Source: Nocardioides panacis (GTDB lineage Bacteria > Actinomycetota > Actinomycetes > Propionibacteriales > Nocardioidaceae). From it: 64,000 bases of DNA. The stretch lies in the NCBI RefSeq assembly GCF_019039255.1, contig NZ_CP077062.1, forward strand, positions 3,534,001 to 3,598,000, read 5' to 3'. The notes beneath the pieces are model-generated. The model made no database searches. It was not told the DNA's origin and saw only the letters and a list, made by a program, of their open reading frames with translations. The position numbers and the translations under genes were made by a program. Positions 3,759-11,876 of the stretch are shown piece by piece. Numbering within the stretch: the first letter of the stretch is position 1; each line of letters opens with the position of its first letter.

Positions 3759-5096
3759 GTGGACAGCGATCTCGGGATCGACGAGCTCGTCGGGGAGTTC
3801 GTGGTCGAGTGCCGCGAGGACCTCGACGGCTTCGACCAGGACGTGGTGGCCCTGGAGAAGGACCCCGGCTCGCGGGCCCTCCTGGACGCCGCGTTCCGGG
3901 CGCTGCACACCATCAAGGGCACCAGCTCCTACTTCGGCTTCGCCCGGCTCGAGGCGGTCACGCACCTCGGTGAGAGCGTGCTGGCCGGCCTGCGGGACGG
4001 GCAGGTCGGCTTCGCGCCGGAGGTCGCCGCCGCGCTGCTCGGGGTGACCGACGTGGTCCGCTCCCTGCTGGTCGGCATCGAGCGCGACGGCACCGAGCCC
4101 GACCTGGACACCGCGGCCCTGGAGGCCCGGCTCCGGCAGTGCCTGACCCGCACCGGGCCGGCCGCCGCACCCCGGCAGCGCTTCGGCGAGACCCTGGTGG
4201 CCGCCGGCGCGGTCACCCCCGGCGACATCGCCTGGGCGGTGGCCCAGCAGGCCGGCGGCGACTCGCGCCCGATCGGCGCGATCCTGCTCGAGGCCGGCCT
4301 GGTCGACGAGACCCAGATCGAGTCCGTGCTGACCCTGCAGGGCCGCAGCGGGCACGAGGCCTCGGTGCGGGTCGACGTCGAGGCGCTCGACCGGCTCGTG
4401 CAGCTCGTCGGCGCGCTGGCCCGCGCCCGGGACGAGGCCGTGCCGCTGCTCCCCGGCGGGACCGCGGACCGCCTCGACGAGGTCACCCGCTCGCTGCGCG
4501 AGGCCGTGCTGCGCACCCGGGTGGAGCCCGTCGAGCGCGCCTGGTCCTCCCTCCCCCGCCTGGTCCGCGACCTGTCCGAGGCCTCGGGCAAGCAGGTCCG
4601 GCTGCTCACCGAGGGCCGGGGCACCTCGATCGACCGCACGCTGCTGGCGGCGGTCAAGGACCCGATGACGCACCTGGTGCGCAACGCCGTCGACCACGGC
4701 ATCGAGACCCCGCGGGAGCGGCGCGCCGCCGGCAAGCCCGCCGAGGCGACGCTGACGGTCCGGGCCCGGACCGAGGAGCACGAGGTGGTCGTCGAGGTCG
4801 CCGACGACGGCCGTGGGATCGACGTGGCCCGGGTGGCGCGGACCGCCCTGGACCAGGGGCTGGTGACGCCCGAGGAGCTCAGCGCCCTGCGCGAGGAGGA
4901 GGTCGTGGCCCTGGTGCTGCGGTCCGGGCTGTCGACGGCCCGCGAGGTCACCAGCGTCTCCGGCCGCGGCTACGGCCTCGACGTGGTGCACACCGACGTC
5001 GAGCGGGCCGGTGGCAGCGTCGAGCTCGTCAGCACCCCCGGTCTGGGCTGCCTGGTGCGGCTCCGGCTGCCGCACGCCGACGGGGGGTCCCGATGA
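3759..5096 (+). CDS. CheA-like histidine kinase with HPt, MshEN-like repeats and ATPase, no CheW-like domain
   Basis: This is a 445-residue cytoplasmic kinase. The N-terminal HPt domain has the phospho-acceptor His50 in LHTIKGTSSYFGF. Two tandem 24-residue repeats follow (about 141-164 and 170-194). They read RFGETLVAAGAVTPGDIA... and PIGAILLEAGLVDETQIE..., each closing with a Gln, and resemble the MshEN/GSPII_E-type nucleotide-binding motif. A dimerisation-like helix pair (about 205-262) comes next, then a CheA ATPase with N box HLVRNAVDHGIE (305-316), G1 DDGRGID (349-355) and G2 GRGYGLDVV (402-410). The P2 and CheW-like P5 domains are absent, and no receptor or CheW gene is nearby, so this is not a classical chemotaxis kinase. 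The GTG start is preceded by GGAGA at 3746-3750. Its stop overlaps the start of the response regulator (ATGA). Confidence 0.85.
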   Translation: MDSDLGIDELVGEFVVECREDLDGFDQDVVALEKDPGSRALLDAAFRALHTIKGTSSYFGFARLEAVTHLGESVLAGLRDGQVGFAPEVAAALLGVTDVVRSLLVGIERDGTEPDLDTAALEARLRQCLTRTGPAAAPRQRFGETLVAAGAVTPGDIAWAVAQQAGGDSRPIGAILLEAGLVDETQIESVLTLQGRSGHEASVRVDVEALDRLVQLVGALARARDEAVPLLPGGTADRLDEVTRSLREAVLRTRVEPVERAWSSLPRLVRDLSEASGKQVRLLTEGRGTSIDRTLLAAVKDPMTHLVRNAVDHGIETPRERRAAGKPAEATLTVRARTEEHEVVVEVADDGRGIDVARVARTALDQGLVTPEELSALREEEVVALVLRSGLSTAREVTSVSGRGYGLDVVHTDVERAGGSVELVSTPGLGCLVRLRLPHADGGSR

Positions 5097-5953
5097 AGAT
5101 CGTGGTCGCCGACGACAGCCGGGTGATGCGGCAGATCGTGATCCGGGCGATGCGGCAGGCCGGCCACACCGGGCACACGTTCCTGGAGGCCGCCGACGGC
5201 GACGCCGCCTTCGAGCTGGTTCGCGCGGAGTCACCGGAGCTGGTGCTCTCGGACTGGAACATGCCCGGCACCAGCGGCCTCGACCTGCTGCAGCGGCTGC
5301 GCGCGTGCGGGGAGACCGTGACCTTCGGTTTCGTCACCTCCGAGAGCTCGCACGACATGCGCCGTCGCGCCTACGACGCCGGCGCCCAGTTCCTGATCGG
5401 CAAGCCGTTCGGCGCCGACGACTTCCGCGAGGTCCTCGGGCCGGCGCTCTCGCCGGAGGAGACCATCGCGACCGCCACGTCCCTGCCGAGCGCGAAGGCG
5501 GTCCGGAACCTGCTCGAGTCGCTGCTCGGCCGCGAGGTCGCGGTGACCCCCACCGCCCCGGTCGAGGTCGGCCCGCTCGACCCGGCGCACGTGGCGGTCT
5601 ACGTCGACGACCGGACCCGGATGGTGGCGACCGCGGTCGCCGACCTCCCGCTCGCCGTGCGCAGCGGTGCCGCCCTCGGGCTCACCCCGCGCCGCGTCGC
5701 CGACGAGGCCGTCCGGGCGCGGCAGCTGCCCGCCCTGCTGCGGGCAGACGTCGACGAGGTCCTCAACGTCGTCTCCACGCTGTTCAACCGCGCCGGTGCC
5801 CCGCACGTGCGGCTGCACTCGACCTTCGCCCCCGGGGAGCGGCTCCCGGCCGACGTGGACGCGGTGGTGCACACCCTGGGCCGTCGCCTGGACCTGCACG
5901 TGGACGTGGCGACGTACGGCGCCGGCCGCCTGGGCCTGGTGCTCGCGCCCTGA
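5093..5953 (+). CDS. Response regulator: REC domain plus CheX/CheC-like phosphatase domain
   Basis: This 286-residue protein is the likely partner of the CheA-like kinase, whose stop codon it overlaps by four bases. The N-terminal receiver domain (1-120) has the acidic pair in VVADDSR, phospho-acceptor Asp54 in VLSDWNMPG, Thr/Ser in FVTSES and Lys104 in LIGKPF. The C-terminal half (about 130-286) has no DNA-binding motif. It resembles CheX/CheC phosphatases in layout, with DEVLN (an ExxN motif) in a helix followed by a Pro about 22 residues later. If so, it would terminate the signal rather than drive transcription. The domain call for the C-terminus is inference from motif and context only. 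It is convergent with the TetR gene, five bases away. Confidence 0.75.
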   Translation: MKIVVADDSRVMRQIVIRAMRQAGHTGHTFLEAADGDAAFELVRAESPELVLSDWNMPGTSGLDLLQRLRACGETVTFGFVTSESSHDMRRRAYDAGAQFLIGKPFGADDFREVLGPALSPEETIATATSLPSAKAVRNLLESLLGREVAVTPTAPVEVGPLDPAHVAVYVDDRTRMVATAVADLPLAVRSGAALGLTPRRVADEAVRARQLPALLRADVDEVLNVVSTLFNRAGAPHVRLHSTFAPGERLPADVDAVVHTLGRRLDLHVDVATYGAGRLGLVLAP

Positions 5954-5958
5954 CCCGT

Positions 5959-6528
5959 CTAGACCTGGCAGGCGATCGCCGCGACGGCGTCCGCGAGGTC
6001 GAGCACCGCCTGCTCCAGCACCGGGTCGTCCGCGTCGAGCGGCAGGTCGAGCTGGAAGCCCATCAGCGTCGCGTCGAGCAGCGCGACCGCGCGCCGGGCC
6101 CGCGCGCGCGGCGCTCCGGAGGCGACCAGGTGGTCGACGACCGCGCCGGTCCAGACCTCGTTGGCCTCCCCCACCACGCTCACGTAGGGCTCGCGCCCGA
6201 ACAGCCCGAGCGCGGCCGCCTCGACGTACATCCGCTGGCAGCGGGCCAGCCGGGGTGAGGTCACCGCGGCCCAGAGGTCCAGCACGGCGGTGCGCACGTC
6301 CGGCGAGGGCGGCATCGCCCGGACCTCCGCGACGGAGCGGTCGTTGGAGACCCGCAGCACGGCGGCCACCAGGTCGTCCTTGCTGGCGAAGTGGTAGAGC
6401 AGCATCCGGTCGCTGGTGCCCAGCTCGGCGGCCATCGGGCGCAGGCTCAGCCCGACCAGGCCGTGCTCGAGCACGTAGTCGGTGGCGGCCTGCGCGACCT
6501 CGTCGCGACGGCGGGTGTCCCGCGCCAT
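5959..6528 (-). CDS. TetR-family repressor, probable regulator of the adjacent SMR efflux gene
   Basis: The protein is 189 residues with an N-terminal helix-turn-helix (about 27-47, SLRPMAAELGTSDRMLLYHF), typical of TetR, and a helical ligand-binding C-terminus. The ATG at 6528 is chosen because GAGAGGAG lies six bases upstream. An upstream in-frame start at 6552 has no such site. It is transcribed divergently from the SMR gene. The shared 70-base gap holds two almost identical 16-base palindromes, strongly suggesting that it represses both itself and the pump. The ligand cannot be told from sequence. Confidence 0.88.
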   Translation of the reverse strand: MARDTRRRDEVAQAATDYVLEHGLVGLSLRPMAAELGTSDRMLLYHFASKDDLVAAVLRVSNDRSVAEVRAMPPSPDVRTAVLDLWAAVTSPRLARCQRMYVEAAALGLFGREPYVSVVGEANEVWTGAVVDHLVASGAPRARARRAVALLDATLMGFQLDLPLDADDPVLEQAVLDLADAVAAIACQV

Positions 6529-6556
6529 CGGCGCTCCTCTCGGGTCGCTCACGGAG

Positions 6557-6572
6557 TGTAGCGAGTGCTACA
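6557..6572. promoter_or_regulatory. TetR operator copy 1
   Basis: TGTAGCGAGTGCTACA has perfect 6-base inverted arms (TGTAGC/GCTACA) with spacer GAGT. It lies in the divergent TetR/SMR promoter region. The TACAGT just after its centre (6569-6574) could be a -10 that the repressor would cover. Confidence 0.8.
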
Positions 6573-6580
6573 GTATGTCA

Positions 6581-6596
6581 TGTAGCGACTGCTACA
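6581..6596. promoter_or_regulatory. TetR operator copy 2
   Basis: TGTAGCGACTGCTACA has the same arms as copy 1, differing only in one spacer base. The two centres are 24 bases apart, close to two helical turns plus a few bases, which would allow paired dimers on nearby faces. Confidence 0.8.
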
Positions 6597-6614
6597 GGAA
6601 TGGAGGTCACGGAC

Positions 6615-6941
6615 ATGGTCGGCGCATGGCTGCTGCTGCTGGGGGCGATCGGGGTCGAGGTCGCGTCCACGGCGGCGCTGCCCCGCACGCACGGGTTCCG
6701 CGATCCCGTCTGGACCGCCCTGGTGCTGGGTGGCTACGCCCTGTCGATCTGGCTGATGGCCGTGGTGATCCGCAACATCCCCGTGTCGGTCACCTACGCC
6801 GTGTGGTCCGGTCTCGGCACCGCCGGCATCGCACTGGTGGGCGTGGTGCTGCTCGGCGAGCCCTGGGACCTGCTCAAGGGCCTCGCGCTGCTGATGATCA
6901 TCGGCGGCGTGCTGGTGCTCAACCTGCACGGTGCGCACTGA
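6615..6941 (+). CDS. Small multidrug resistance (SMR/EmrE-type) efflux protein
   Basis: This 108-residue inner-membrane protein has four transmembrane helices. It shows the essential membrane Glu (residue 15, GAIGVEVAST), the conserved Trp64 in TYAVWSGLGTAG and the closing LNLHG. SMR dimers exchange protons for cationic toxic compounds or guanidinium; which applies here is not visible. The ATG at 6615 is preferred over the one at 6600 because GGAGG (6602-6606) then sits eight bases upstream. The upstream ATG would bury that site. Expression is probably controlled by the divergent TetR protein. A strong hairpin follows. Confidence 0.9.
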   Translation: MVGAWLLLLGAIGVEVASTAALPRTHGFRDPVWTALVLGGYALSIWLMAVVIRNIPVSVTYAVWSGLGTAGIALVGVVLLGEPWDLLKGLALLMIIGGVLVLNLHGAH

Positions 6942-6964
6942 CCCGGTCCGCACCCCTGACGCAC

Positions 6965-6997
6965 CGAGGGCGCCACCCGTGACGGGTGGCGCCCTCG
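6965..6997. terminator. Bidirectional hairpin between the SMR gene and clpC
   Basis: A perfect 16-base inverted repeat (CGAGGGCGCCACCCGT and its complement around a single central base) ends shortly before the clpC stop codon and follows the SMR stop. The two genes converge on it, so it can end both transcripts. There is no long U-tract, as is usual in high-GC actinobacteria. Confidence 0.85.
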
Positions 6998-7010
6998 TGC
7001 TGTGCAGTGG

Positions 7011-9524
7011 CTACTTCTCGGCGTCGCCGGTCGCGGCCGGCTCCTCGATCGGCGGGAGGTCCGGCAGCTCGGCCTTCTGCTCCCCGCGGAAGGTGAAGGT
7101 CGCCGTCGCGCCCTCGCCCTCGACGTCGACCAGGATGATCTGGCCGGGTCGCACCTCGCCGTAGAGCATCTTCTCGGCCAGGCTGTCCTCGATCTCGCGC
7201 TGCACCGTGCGCCGCAGCGGACGGGCACCGAGCACCGGGTCGAACCCGCGCTCGGCGAGCAGGTCCTTGGCGGCCTGCGTGAGCTCGAGGCCCATGTCGC
7301 GGTCCTTGAGGCGCTTCTCCACGCCGGCGACCATGTTGTCGACCATGGAGATGATCTGCTCCTTGGTCAGCGGCGGGAACACCACGACCTCGTCGACACG
7401 GTTGAGGAACTCGGGCCGGAAGTGCTGCTTGAGCTCCTCGGAGACCTTCGCCTTCATCCGGTCGTAGTTGCCCTGGACGTCCGTGGCCTGCTGGAACCCG
7501 AGGCTGGCGCCCTTGGAGATGTCGCGGGTGCCGAGGTTCGTGGTCATGATGATCACGGTGTTCTTGAAGTCGACCACGCGGCCCTGCGAGTCGGTCAGGC
7601 GACCTTCCTCGAGGATCTGCAGCAGCGAGTTGAAGATGTCCGGGTGGGCCTTCTCGATCTCGTCGAAGAGGACCACGGAGAACGGCTTGCGGCGCACCTT
7701 CTCGGTGAGCTGGCCGCCCTCCTCGTACCCGACGTAGCCGGGAGGCGAGCCGAACAGCCGCGAGACGGTGTGCTTCTCGCTGAACTCGCTCATGTCGAGC
7801 TGGATCAGCGCGTCCTCGTCGCCGAACAGGAACTCCGCGAGCGTCTTGGAGAGCCAGGTCTTCCCGACGCCGGACGGGCCGGCGAAGATGAACGACCCGC
7901 CGGGGCGCTTGGGGTCCTTGAGGCCGGCGCGGGTGCGCCGGATCGCGCGGGACAGCGCCTTGACGGCCTGGTCCTGCCCGATGACGCGCTTGTGCAGCTC
8001 GTCCTCCATCTTGAGCAGCCGGGTCGACTCCTCCTCGGACAGCTTCACGATCGGGATGCCGGTGGCGACCGCGAGGACCTCGGCGATCAGCTCCTCGTCG
8101 ACCTCGGCGACGACGTCCATGTCGCCGGCCTTCCACTGCTTCTCGCGCTCGCCCTTGGCGAGGATCAGCTTCTTCTCCTCGTCGCGCAGCGACGCCGCCA
8201 GCTCGAAGTCCTGGCTGTCGATCGCGCCCTCCTTGCGGCGGCGGACGTCGGCGATCTTGTCGTCGAACTCGCGCAGGTCCGGCGGCGCGGTCATCCGGCG
8301 GATCCGGAGCCGGGAGCCGGCCTCGTCGATCAGGTCGATGGCCTTGTCGGGCAAGAACCGGTCGGAGACGTAGCGGTCGGCCAGCGTGGCCGCCGCGACG
8401 AGCGCCTCGTCGGTGATGGTGACCCGGTGGTGCGCCTCGTAGCGGTCGCGCAGCCCCTTGAGGATCTCGATGGTGTGCGCGATCGTCGGCTCCTGCACCT
8501 GGATCGGCTGGAAGCGCCGCTCGAGGGCGGCGTCCTTCTCGAGGTGCTTGCGGTACTCGTCGAGCGTCGTGGCGCCGATGGTCTGCAGCTCGCCGCGGGC
8601 CAGCATCGGCTTGAGGATCGAGGCCGCGTCGATCGCGCCCTCGGCCGCGCCGGCGCCGACGAGCGTGTGCAGCTCGTCGATGAACAGCACGATGTCACCG
8701 CGGGTCTTGATCTCCTTGAGCACCTTCTTCAGGCGCTCCTCGAAGTCACCGCGGTAGCGCGAGCCGGCGACCAGGGAGCCCAGGTCGAGGCTGTAGATCT
8801 GCTTGTCCTTGAGCGTCTCGGGCACGTCGCCGCGCACGATCGCCTGGGCCAGGCCCTCGACGCACGCGGTCTTGCCGACGCCGGGCTCTCCGATCAGCAC
8901 CGGGTTGTTCTTGGTGCGTCGCGAGAGCACCTGCATCACGCGCTCGATCTCCTTCTCGCGCCCGATGACCGGGTCGAGCTTGCCCTCGCGGGCGGCCTGC
9001 GTGTAGTTGCGGCCGAACTGGTCGAGGACCAGGGAGGAGGAGGGCGCACCCTCCTGCGGAGCGCCGGCGGCGGCGGTCTCCTTGCCCTGGAAGCCGGAGA
9101 GCAGCTGGATGACCTGCTGGCGGACCCGGTTGAGGTCGGCGCCGAGCTTGACCAGCACCTGGGCGGCGACGCCCTCGCCCTCGCGGATCAGGCCGAGCAG
9201 GATGTGCTCGGTGCCGATGTAGTTGTGGCCGAGCTGGAGGGCCTCGCGCAGCGACAGCTCGAGGACCTTCTTGGCGCGCGGCGTGAACGGGATGTGCCCG
9301 CTGGGGGCCTGCTGGCCCTGGCCGATGATCTCCTCGACCTGCGCGCGCACCGCCTCGAGCGAGATGCCCAGGCTCTCCAGAGCCTTGGCAGCGACACCCT
9401 CACCCTCGTGGATCAGTCCCAGGAGGATGTGCTCGGTGCCGATGTAGTTGTGGCTGAGCATCCGGGCTTCCTCCTGCGCCAGGACGACCACCCTGCGGGC
9501 TCGGTCTGTGAACCGCTCGAACAT
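7011..9524 (-). CDS. clpC: ClpC ATPase, unfoldase subunit of the Clp protease
   Basis: ClpC unfolds substrates for the ClpP1P2 chamber and is essential in several actinobacteria. The 837-residue length is standard. Two N-domain repeats each carry [14 protein letters not shown] (near residues 25 and 100). The first AAA+ domain has Walker A GEPGVGKT (about 212-219) and FIDELH. A UVR-type middle region follows, then the second AAA+ domain with GPSGVGKT and [11 protein letters not shown], and the C-terminal D2 small domain. AAGGAG six bases before ATG 9524 supports the start. A ClgR-type box and a -10 lie upstream. lsr2 is upstream on the same strand. Confidence 0.97.
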
Positions 9525-9603
9525 GTTTGCTCCTTGCCGTGCCTCACCGTTCCGTCCCCGGCCGTGGCCGGGAGCGGTGGGCTTTCGTTCACCAACACAG
9601 TAG

Positions 9604-9621
9604 TCCTGCGTCGTCGCAGGA
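9604..9621. repeat. Inverted repeat in the clpC upstream region
   Basis: TCCTGCG-TCGT-CGCAGGA has perfect seven-base arms. It abuts a possible second clpC -10 (TACTGT on the minus strand, 9597-9602), so it could be an operator for a proximal promoter or an mRNA hairpin. No known heat-shock operator (HAIR or CIRCE) matches it. Confidence 0.45.
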
Positions 9622-9680
9622 AGTCTGTGCCCCAGTTCGTGAGATGTGAACCGGGTACGTGTGTCCCAACCCCTGCGAGC

Positions 9681-9686
9681 AGCCTA
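9681..9686 (-). promoter_or_regulatory. Putative distal clpC -10 element (TAGGCT)
   Basis: Minus-strand TAGGCT lies about 30 bases downstream of the ClgR-like box, placing the box centre near -49 of the expected start, a normal activator position. The resulting leader would be about 150 bases. Confidence 0.45.
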
Positions 9687-9715
9687 CGTGTTCCCCCCGC
9701 AACGTCGTTAAAGCA

Positions 9716-9730
9716 TTCGCCGACAGCGAA
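9716..9730. promoter_or_regulatory. ClgR-type activator box upstream of clpC
   Basis: TTCGC-CGACA-GCGAA is a perfect five-base-arm palindrome, extended by a C on the right. It matches the CGC-N5-GCG core known for ClgR, the activator of clp genes in Streptomyces, Corynebacterium and Mycobacterium. ClgR itself is not in the window. Confidence 0.75.
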
Positions 9731-9784
9731 CAGGGCTTCCCTGCGCGCTGCCGGCGACCGGACCGGTCTGGTCCGTCCGTGCGT

Positions 9785-10120
9785 TCAGTTGGCGGCGGCG
9801 TACGCCTCGCGCACCTCGGCGCTCACCCGGCCCCGCTCGGGGACGTCCCAGCCGTTCTCGCGGGCCCAGGCCCGGATCTCCGCCGCCGAGGTGCCGCCGT
9901 CGTCCGCGGCCGGCGTCGAGGCGCGGCGCCCGCTCTTGCGGCGCCCACCGGTGCGGCGCGCGTGGCCGATGTAGAGGCTGAGCGCGTTGCGCAGCTCGCC
10001 GGCGTGCTGGTCGGAGAGGTCGATCTCGTAGTCCACCCCGTCCAGGGCGAAGCTGACCGTCTCCTCGGCGTCACTCCCGTCGATGTCGTCGACGAGAACC
10101 ACATTTACCCGCTGTGCCAT
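9785..10120 (-). CDS. lsr2: Lsr2 family nucleoid-associated DNA-bridging protein
   Basis: Lsr2 is the actinobacterial H-NS analogue, silencing AT-rich or foreign DNA. At 111 residues it has the normal size. The N-terminal dimerisation region begins AQRVNVVLVDDIDG, and a flexible basic linker with GGRRKSGRRAS is followed by the C-terminal DNA-binding domain (from about residue 76). That domain carries EIRAWARENG and the minor-groove RGR motif at 96-98. The start at 10120 gives the family N-terminus; a longer open frame upstream is non-coding. GAAAGG lies eight bases before it. The gene sits between lysS and clpC as in mycobacteria. Confidence 0.95.
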   Translation of the reverse strand: MAQRVNVVLVDDIDGSDAEETVSFALDGVDYEIDLSDQHAGELRNALSLYIGHARRTGGRRKSGRRASTPAADDGGTSAAEIRAWARENGWDVPERGRVSAEVREAYAAAN

Positions 10121-10173
10121 GGATATGCCTTTCGAATCCCAGGAATTTCCGCTTCGGGAAAAGAATAGGGAGA

Positions 10174-10194
10174 GGGTTTGCATTTGGCAAACCC
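10174..10194. promoter_or_regulatory. Inverted repeat in the AT-richer lsr2 upstream region
   Basis: GGGTTTGC-ATTTG-GCAAACCC has perfect eight-base arms. It lies 54 bases before the lsr2 start in the most AT-rich part of this neighbourhood, also flanked by two copies of CCCAGGAATT (10138-10147 and 10224-10233). It is a candidate operator. Autorepression by Lsr2 through the AT-rich stretch is plausible but not shown. Confidence 0.45.
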
Positions 10195-10358
10195 CGGCGG
10201 CGGGTCGGACTTTCCGGCATTTCCCCAGGAATTCCCCCCGCGCGGCCCGACGATTTCCTGCTCGCCACCGCGCACCGGGCGCAGCGGCCCGCCTGCGCCT
10301 GTCCTGAGCGTGCGGGCGGCCCGGAAAATAGGCCGAGCGGTTTATCGGCGCAGCGCGG

Positions 10359-11876
10359 TCATTCGGGACGGACGAGCGGGAAGAGGATCGTCTCCCGGAC
10401 GCTGGCACCGGTCAGCAGCATGATCAACCGGTCCACGCCGATCCCGATTCCACCGGCCGGCGGCATGCCGTACTCCATCGCCTTCAGGAATACCTCGTCG
10501 AGCTCCATCGCCTCCGGGTCCCCGCCGGCCGCGAGCCGCGACTGCGACTCGAGCCGGTCCCGCTGGATCACCGGGTCGTTGAGCTCGGAGTACGCCGCAC
10601 CGAGCTCGACCCCGTTGATGATCAGGTCCCACGCCTCGTTGAGCCCGGGCGTCGTGCGGTGCGGCTTGGCCAGCGGCTTGACCGCCTCGGGGTAGTCCAT
10701 GACGAACGTGGGCTGGATCAGGGTGTCCTCGACGAGCTGCTCGAACAGCTCCACGACGATCTCGGCGGGGCCCCAGCCGGGCTGCAGCTCGACCTCGTGC
10801 TTGTCCGCGTAGCCGCGCAGGGTCTCGGCGTCGGTGCCCACGTCGACCGTCGTCCCGAGCGCCTCGGAGACCAGCTCCAGGATCGGCGCCTCGCGCCACT
10901 CGCCGTGCAGGTCGATCTCGGTGCCGTCGCGACCCACGACGGTGGGGCTGCCGATCGCCCGGTGCGCGTCGCGGACCAGGTCCTTGGCCAGCTCGATCAT
11001 CGTGTGCTGGTCGCCGTAGGCCTCGTAGGCCTCCAGCATCGAGAACTCCGCCGCGTGCGTGGAGTCCAGGCCCTCGTTGCGGAACGTGCGGCCGATCTCG
11101 TAGACCCGGTCGACCCCGCCGATCATCGCCCGCTTGAGGTCGAGCTCGAGCGCGATGCGCAGCAGCATCTCCTGGTCGAGCGCGTTGAGGTGGGTGCGGA
11201 ACGGCCGGGCCGCCGCGCCGCCGTTGGTGAGCTGCAGGATCGGCGTCTCGACCTCGATGAAGCTGCGCGCGTCGAGGGTGGCGCGCAGGCTCTTGAGCAC
11301 CGCGGCCTTGGTGCGGACCATCGCGCGCGGCTCCGCGCGCACCATCATGTCGACGTAGCGCAGCCGGATCCGGGCCTCGTCGGACAGCGGCTTGTGCTCG
11401 TTGGGCAGCGGTCGCAGCGTCTTGGCGGCGACCGACCAGTCGGAGGCCTGCACCGACAGCTCGCCGCGGCGGCTGGTGACCACCTCGCCGCGCACGGCCA
11501 GCAGGTCCCCGAGGTCCACGGTGGCCTTGAACGCGGCCAGCCGCTCCTCCCCGACGTCCGCCAGGGAGACCATCACCTGCAGCTCGGAGCCATCCCCCTC
11601 ACGGAGCCGGACGAAGCAGAGCTTCCCGGTGTTCCGCAGGAACATCACCCGGCCCACGACCGCGACCCGTGCTCCGGTGTGCGTGTCCGGCTCGAGCTCC
11701 TGCCCGTCGTACGTCGCGCGGATCTCGGCCAGCGTGTGCGAGCGCTCGACGGTCACGGGGTAGGGCTGGACGCCCTCGTCGATCAACCGGTCGCGCTTGT
11801 CCCGACGCACGCGCATCTGCTCGGGGAGGTCGTCGACCTCGGCGTCAGGGGCGGTGTCCTGCGGCTGGTCGGTCAT
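10359..11876 (-). CDS. lysS: Lysyl-tRNA synthetase, class II
   Basis: LysS charges tRNA-Lys. This is a 505-residue enzyme with an N-terminal OB-fold anticodon-binding domain (about 60-170, including [17 protein letters not shown]). The class II catalytic core has motif 2 [21 protein letters not shown] and motif 3 [16 protein letters not shown] near the C-terminus. No MprF-like domain is fused, so it is the housekeeping enzyme rather than LysX. The ATG at 11876 is supported by a TAGGCT hexamer six bases upstream with no ribosome-binding site, i.e. a leaderless message. lsr2 follows on the same strand. Confidence 0.97.

Follow-up and report, generated by a model that had tools for sequence, protein, structure and literature searches.

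A CheA-derived kinase with a putative c-di-GMP-type MshEN domain and a fused CheX-like regulator in Nocardioides panacis, a possible receptor-free remnant of flagellar chemotaxis

The DNA considered here, called the window throughout, is a stretch of 64,000 nucleotides from Nocardioides panacis (NZ_CP077062.1, positions 3,534,001 to 3,598,000), lying in a single 4.9 Mb contig, 99.96% complete. Between mutY and a tetR gene, apart from the genome's flagellar cluster, the window carries a gene pair encoding a CheA-derived histidine kinase and a response regulator. We suggest that a putative cyclic di-GMP (c-di-GMP) sensing domain of the MshEN type lies inside this kinase. The features of the pair are as follows, in window positions.

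3759..5096, + strand: CheA-type histidine kinase without P2 and P5; 445 residues, GTG start, stop codon ending at 5096
3783..4037, + strand: HPt (P1) domain, residues 9-93; Pfam Hpt E 1.1e-12, matches CheA P1 structures (phmmer)
3906-3908, + strand: His50, phosphorylatable, within HTIKG of the HPt domain
4179..4250, + strand: putative MshEN motif I, residues 141-164, RFGETLVAAGAVTPGDIAWAVAQQ (RFG...Q); NF053729, relaxed Wang motif, fold
4269..4340, + strand: putative MshEN motif II, residues 171-194, PIGAILLEAGLVDETQIESVLTLQ (PIG...Q); NF053729, relaxed Wang motif, fold
4359..4544, + strand: P3 dimerisation region, residues ~201-262, its end set by CheA alignment
4659..5075, + strand: P4 ATP-binding kinase domain, residues 301-439; HATPase_c E 8.4e-15
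5093..5953, + strand: response regulator of 286 residues, with a CheX-like domain joined to its CheY-like receiver; overlaps the kinase gene by ATGA at 5093-5096
5099..5434, + strand: receiver domain, residues 3-114; Pfam Response_reg E 1.7e-20, best NCBIfam match CheY E 1.4e-14
5252-5254, + strand: Asp54 of the receiver
5483..5950, + strand: CheC/CheX/FliY/FliM-fold domain, residues 131-286 (156 residues), by predicted fold
5756-5767, + strand: E222-x-x-N225 of the CheX-like domain

An earlier model-made reading of the letters alone (the sequence-only reading) had described a kinase that keeps HPt with His50 and the N, G1 and G2 boxes and has lost P2 and the CheW-like P5, and both halves of this description hold. 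The boxes read HLVRNAVDHG (N), DDGRGID (G1) and GRGYG (G2), and the solved structure nearest to residues 195-438 is CheA (E 3.2e-59). Of the parts expected of a CheA, the HPt with its phosphorylatable His and CheA-related P3 and P4 are present, P3 being weak in Pfam (H-kinase_dim, 20.6 bits over residues 201-221, under the cut-off of 23), while P2 is missing. The protein stops six residues past the P4 match and therefore has no P5, and Pfam finds no CheW domain in the kinase or elsewhere in the genome, which is why we write ‘CheA-derived kinase’ rather than canonical CheA. It is the only match of its kind in the window genome.

Between HPt and the kinase core, the sequence-only reading had proposed two 24-residue MshEN-like repeats. 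The first stands at 141-164 as proposed, and the second begins at residue 171, not 170. As given in the available part of Wang 2016 (PMC5013675), the MshEN consensus consists of two motifs of 24 residues each, with R/L/G/L/L/Q as key residues and five residues between them. The kinase has R, F, G, I, V, Q in motif I and P, I, G, I, L, Q in motif II, separated by six residues versus five in VcMshE, so that the departures from consensus are one Arg, several of the Leu positions and the spacer length; both motifs satisfy the relaxed form given by Wang 2016. Two such motifs turned up in none of 200,000 shuffled versions of residues 118-205, and one or more in 48. The NCBIfam MshE-related c-di-GMP model, NF053729, scores 39.0 bits on the whole kinase and 40.3 bits on the region (cut-off 38), and the kinase is its sole match in the genome at E <= 0.01; in the genome-wide scan one half of the region scored, at 23.5 bits, under the cut-off. 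No MshEN-type Pfam family is listed for the kinase at E <= 1, and the region's weak Pfam rows, DUF4388 (18.9 bits) and FumaraseC_C (17.8 bits), both fall under cut-off. The predicted fold is the four-helix arrangement of MshE_N and matches c-di-GMP-bound structures, and one of the PilF repeats has Pro at the position aligned with the motif II Pro.

The proposed likeness thus survives both profile and fold comparison, and we regard the region as a putative MshEN c-di-GMP-type domain. It shares its two motifs and its fold with the MshEN domain of the MshE, PilB and PilF ATPases, and differs from it in lying inside a CheA between HPt and P3, in its longer spacer and in the Pro of motif II. The ligand should be c-di-GMP rather than the ‘c-di-nucleotide’ first suggested, because no c-di-AMP binding by MshEN is reported in the available part of PMC5013675.

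The ATGA overlap and the receiver, both seen in the sequence-only reading, are borne out, and the CheY-type residues D7, D8, D54, T82 and K104 are present in the receiver as read in alignment. The C-terminal domain, which had been called CheC/CheX-like, belongs to no Pfam family, but its predicted fold is that of FliM-middle/FliY/CheC/CheX, with FliM scoring highest. CheX has one E-x-x-N, in a helix of its second half. The window domain shares the fold of the CheX/CheC/FliY phosphatases and the FliM middle domain, and its single E-x-x-N lies in a second-half helix like that of CheX; it differs in matching neither Pfam CheX nor CheC, in its fusion to a receiver and in its FliM top score. We aligned 16 of 105 strong matches to this domain, leaving out L100 and L102 (near copies of L099 and L103) and the incomplete L107. 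The E-x-x-N is kept in all 16 rows, the window's included, and none of the 16 matches Pfam CheX or CheC; three canonical CheX neighbours do match PF13690. A profile of the domain searched against PDB gave two weak cytochrome P450 rows and nothing else. Identification as CheX by sequence was dropped on these grounds, and fold comparison was used instead.

The survey for conserved kinase-regulator pairs that the sequence-only reading proposed found the same pair in G011, from another genus of the family (kinase 44% and regulator 50% identical), where it is directly adjoined on the other strand by csrA (by Pfam), fliW, flgL, flgK and flgN (by eye). The statement that no receptor, CheW or flagellar gene lies near the pair is correct for the window (nine genes by Pfam, the rest by eye) but misleading, given these neighbours in G011 and a flagellar cluster elsewhere in the window genome. 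In G004, of the same genus, the regulator is intact and 64% identical, and the kinase, which also stops after P4, has its two ends on two contigs. Among chemotactic relatives, whose cluster genes were named partly by Pfam and otherwise by eye, L023 has the order csrA-cheA-cheW-receptor, and L096, L102 and L108 have cheB-cheR-cheY-cheX-receiver-CheX-like. By sequence, the window regulator is a fusion of the counterparts of the last two genes of those clusters, which lie next to each other there.

Of 341 family genomes, 101 have a CheA match (E <= 1e-40) and 109 a match to the CheX-like domain, 105 of these being strong. The two co-occur in 101/101 CheA genomes (Fisher 1e-82, not corrected for kinship; the weak CheX-like matches G160, G217, G313 and G328 left out). 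The weak match of G217 resembles, by eye, an unrelated dehydrogenase. Strong CheX-like matches without CheA occur in G001, G034, G002 (86% complete) and G277 (75% complete). Twelve genomes were checked for FlhA, CheW and methyl-accepting chemotaxis proteins (MCPs): G000, G004 and G011 have FlhA with no CheW or MCP match, all three are present in G006, G010, G012, G025 and G033, G002 has MCP and FlhA with no CheW found, G001 has FlhA only, and all three are missing from G003 and G005. For independent genomes, which these are not, a clean division into 3 and 5 would arise by chance 1 time in 56.

Two relatives of the regulator stand apart. G001, of the same genus and with no CheA match, encodes an orthologue (L095, 8747-9628) whose receiver is without the phospho-acceptor Asp (CGWNVPG) and whose CheX-like domain retains E-x-x-N. 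G034 has a CheX-like gene alone amid flagellar genes, with E-x-x-N lost (L194, 9277-9771); the domain has here outlasted kinase and receiver, which hints at a structural flagellar role.

Searches of the window genome gave no match to CheB, CheW or MCP signalling domains, control genomes being positive in each; by sequence, receptors, CheW, CheB and the P5 domain are all not found. To this extent the pair is self-contained, as had been proposed, but it would make a single His-to-Asp transfer, not a multi-step phosphorelay. PMC10746217 defines a chemosensory system as receptor, CheA, CheW and CheY, and the window system, with no MCP and no CheW, does not qualify. GGDEF matches occur at 33 places; four of these are the halves of two split domains, which leaves about 31.

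The flagellar cluster of this genome lies at ~187-216 kb and, with names assigned by eye except for FlhA, holds csrA, fliW, flgL, flgK, flgN, a sigma factor, flagellin, fliD and fliS, and further flgB to flgE, fliE to fliJ, motA, motB, fliL, fliM, fliO to fliR, flhB and flhA. Three of these genes are each broken by one frame change.

L123 (genome C1:204001-223000), ~4060-5140, 6420-7330, 9560-11730: split fliM, fliP, flhA

Because GGDEF domains are split at a similar rate per kilobase (two of ~31, a rough estimate), genuine breaks and errors of assembly are equally likely. The FliM N-terminus, considered as a clue to a motor target, has no recognisable motif here or in relatives with full chemotaxis, and is uninformative.

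To place the kinase among other CheAs, we surveyed 65 sequences (fetched loci, at most 30 per search, and six others, among 101 and 110 positive genomes). Just two of them, from the window and G011, stop at P4, and the remaining 63 continue for at least 139 residues beyond it, judged by length only. MshEN pairs are carried by longer CheAs from other families of actinobacteria (L032, L157-L160, L162, L164, L165 and L185), which differ from the window kinase in having 153-320 residues after P4, where P5 sits, and on which NF053729 scores from 44.7 down to 19 bits. Ten linker regions picked for an MshEN-like look before scoring all matched NF053729 at E <= 0.1, four of them above cut-off. Of ten further linkers, L130, L134 (one half motif each) and L165 matched, and six comparison linkers did not. 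The tenth, L026, matches CheA (limit 1e-6) but not NF053729, because the contig end cuts its motif II. L130 and L134 (G123, G127) are long Nocardioidaceae CheAs whose single 24-residue half motif perhaps pairs across dimer subunits or is a leftover, and L185 (G530, 2200-2856), a CheA from a distant family of actinobacteria, has a longer linker in which a single residue separates two MshEN motifs. At the MshEN position, a linker rich in Pro, Ala and Glu is found in most of the Nocardioidaceae CheAs inspected.

In a tree of 50 of the 65 (15 were dropped, the P3 pattern not being found), the kinases of the window and of G011 branch close to the base of the CheAs from Nocardioidaceae, with support of 95/87 for the clade including G011 and 83/78 for the node including the window; long branches leave their exact place unsure. 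The simplest story would be that MshEN replaced P2 long ago in this lineage and was lost by most Nocardioidaceae, while the window line retained it and lost P5 along with CheW and receptors; an independent gain of MshEN is a possible alternative. The pair may derive from the F5 chemosensory class of Actinobacteria, a class that we assign from its description in PMC10746217 (a CheA that has an extra CheW domain, and genes in the order AW...BR). F5 CheAs of the family are nearest by tree and neighbouring genes correspond, while the window system differs in having a fused regulator and no receptor, CheW, CheB or P5.

These observations lead us to propose, with a probability of about 0.5, that the pair is what remains, without receptors, of a flagellar chemotaxis system, and that c-di-GMP replaces chemoreceptors as CheA input. 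Since MshEN sits on the HPt-P3 tether, its ligand could alter the reach of HPt to P4; c-di-GMP binding would then change HPt access to the kinase domain and set the rate of His50 phosphorylation. Phosphate would move from His50 to Asp54 of the fused regulator, and the CheX-like domain may take it off via E222 and N225, in cis or in trans. The regulator would work on the flagellar switch or its partners, a target suggested by a fold like that of FliM/FliY, by the flagellar genes that adjoin its relatives in G011 and G034, and by its joint occurrence with CheA. In short, the level of c-di-GMP inside the cell would stand in for chemoreceptors.

The best surviving alternative, which we nonetheless consider unlikely, is a decaying relic: receptors and P5 went first, and kinase and regulator are being lost with little function. 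The absence of a kinase match in G001 despite its FlhA, the Asp-less receiver there, the 19 kb from G034 that show only a CheX-like gene without E-x-x-N, the long branches and the split flagellar genes all fit such decay. Against this, the window and G011, at 44% and 50% identity, both have intact frames and active-site residues, the fusion and the ATGA coupling persist, and the G004 regulator is intact with its kinase present as two open end pieces. The pair's nonsynonymous-to-synonymous (dN/dS-type) substitution ratio resembles the ratios seen for flgK and flgL; GC-rich codons probably inflate dN/dS, which fails to separate relic from functional pair and was rejected as a discriminator.

Less credible is a working c-di-GMP-sensing kinase whose output is non-flagellar. 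Its locus away from the flagellar cluster, the split flagellar genes of this strain and the lack of a motor target found would agree with action on another process, but the G011 pair adjoins flagellar genes, the C-terminal domain has the FliM/FliY/CheC fold, the G034 relative stands alone between flagellar genes, and FlhA is present in 3/3 kinase-bearing genomes. Slightly more doubtful still is that the region is a mere HPt-core spacer that has lost c-di-GMP binding, in a kinase that is constitutive or senses something else: motif II has Pro for Arg, the spacer is six residues, Phe, Ile and Val stand at Leu positions, the motif I Arg is Thr in G011, the Pro/Ala/Glu-rich linker takes this place in most of the Nocardioidaceae CheAs inspected, and the available part of PMC5013675 shows with XpsE that MshEN can lose binding, but both motifs retain Gly3 and Gln24, contacts remain hydrophobic, PilF has Pro at the aligned place in one repeat, and changes at Arg9, Asp12 or Gln32 shifted affinity at most about fivefold in that same part of PMC5013675.

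Upstream of the kinase, near the mutY-like gene, lies disA (diadenylate cyclase, 792-1877). A link through c-di-AMP was considered and rejected, since MshEN is not reported to bind c-di-AMP in the available part of PMC5013675 and an opposite-strand gene intervenes; this neighbour is probably unrelated. The pair is followed at 5959-6941 by genes for a TetR-family regulator and a transporter of the small multidrug-resistance family. A scan not built for such GC-rich genomes found no promoters or terminators.

The claim that no such system had been described stands only in part. One sentence in the available part of Wang 2016 (PMC5013675) names MshEN associated with CheA and with CheX, which the window kinase resembles in joining MshEN to CheA, and searches of the open-licence PMC literature gave no publication on a P5-less or receptorless MshEN-CheA. 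Borrelia CheA1 is likewise a chemosensory-like kinase dispensable for chemotaxis, from what is available of PMC10703414. In the accessible part of Berry 2023 (PMC10782961), all 13,673 CheAs surveyed have a CheW domain and CheA is without a sensor domain; MshEN, T2SSE and c-di-GMP are nowhere mentioned in that part of the main text, and the survey's sampling may have excluded kinases of the window type.

If correctly read, the window kinase breaks both rules of PMC10782961 as they appear in that accessible part, no sensor domain and always a CheW domain. A 2023 survey (PMC10746217) counted 14 species lacking a chemosensory system among 69 with flagella and called their direction control unclear; kinase-bearing genomes such as these would be scored as without chemotaxis, and the kinase is a testable answer for such bacteria. 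We hold tentatively, and at somewhat less than even odds, that a chemosensory pathway has shifted here from outside to inside sensing, in flagellated actinobacteria seemingly without chemotaxis. The pair suggests a receptor-free form of flagellar control, built from a cut-down kinase with a built-in messenger sensor and a matching switch protein, through which c-di-GMP may gain direct entry to the CheA-CheY pathway.
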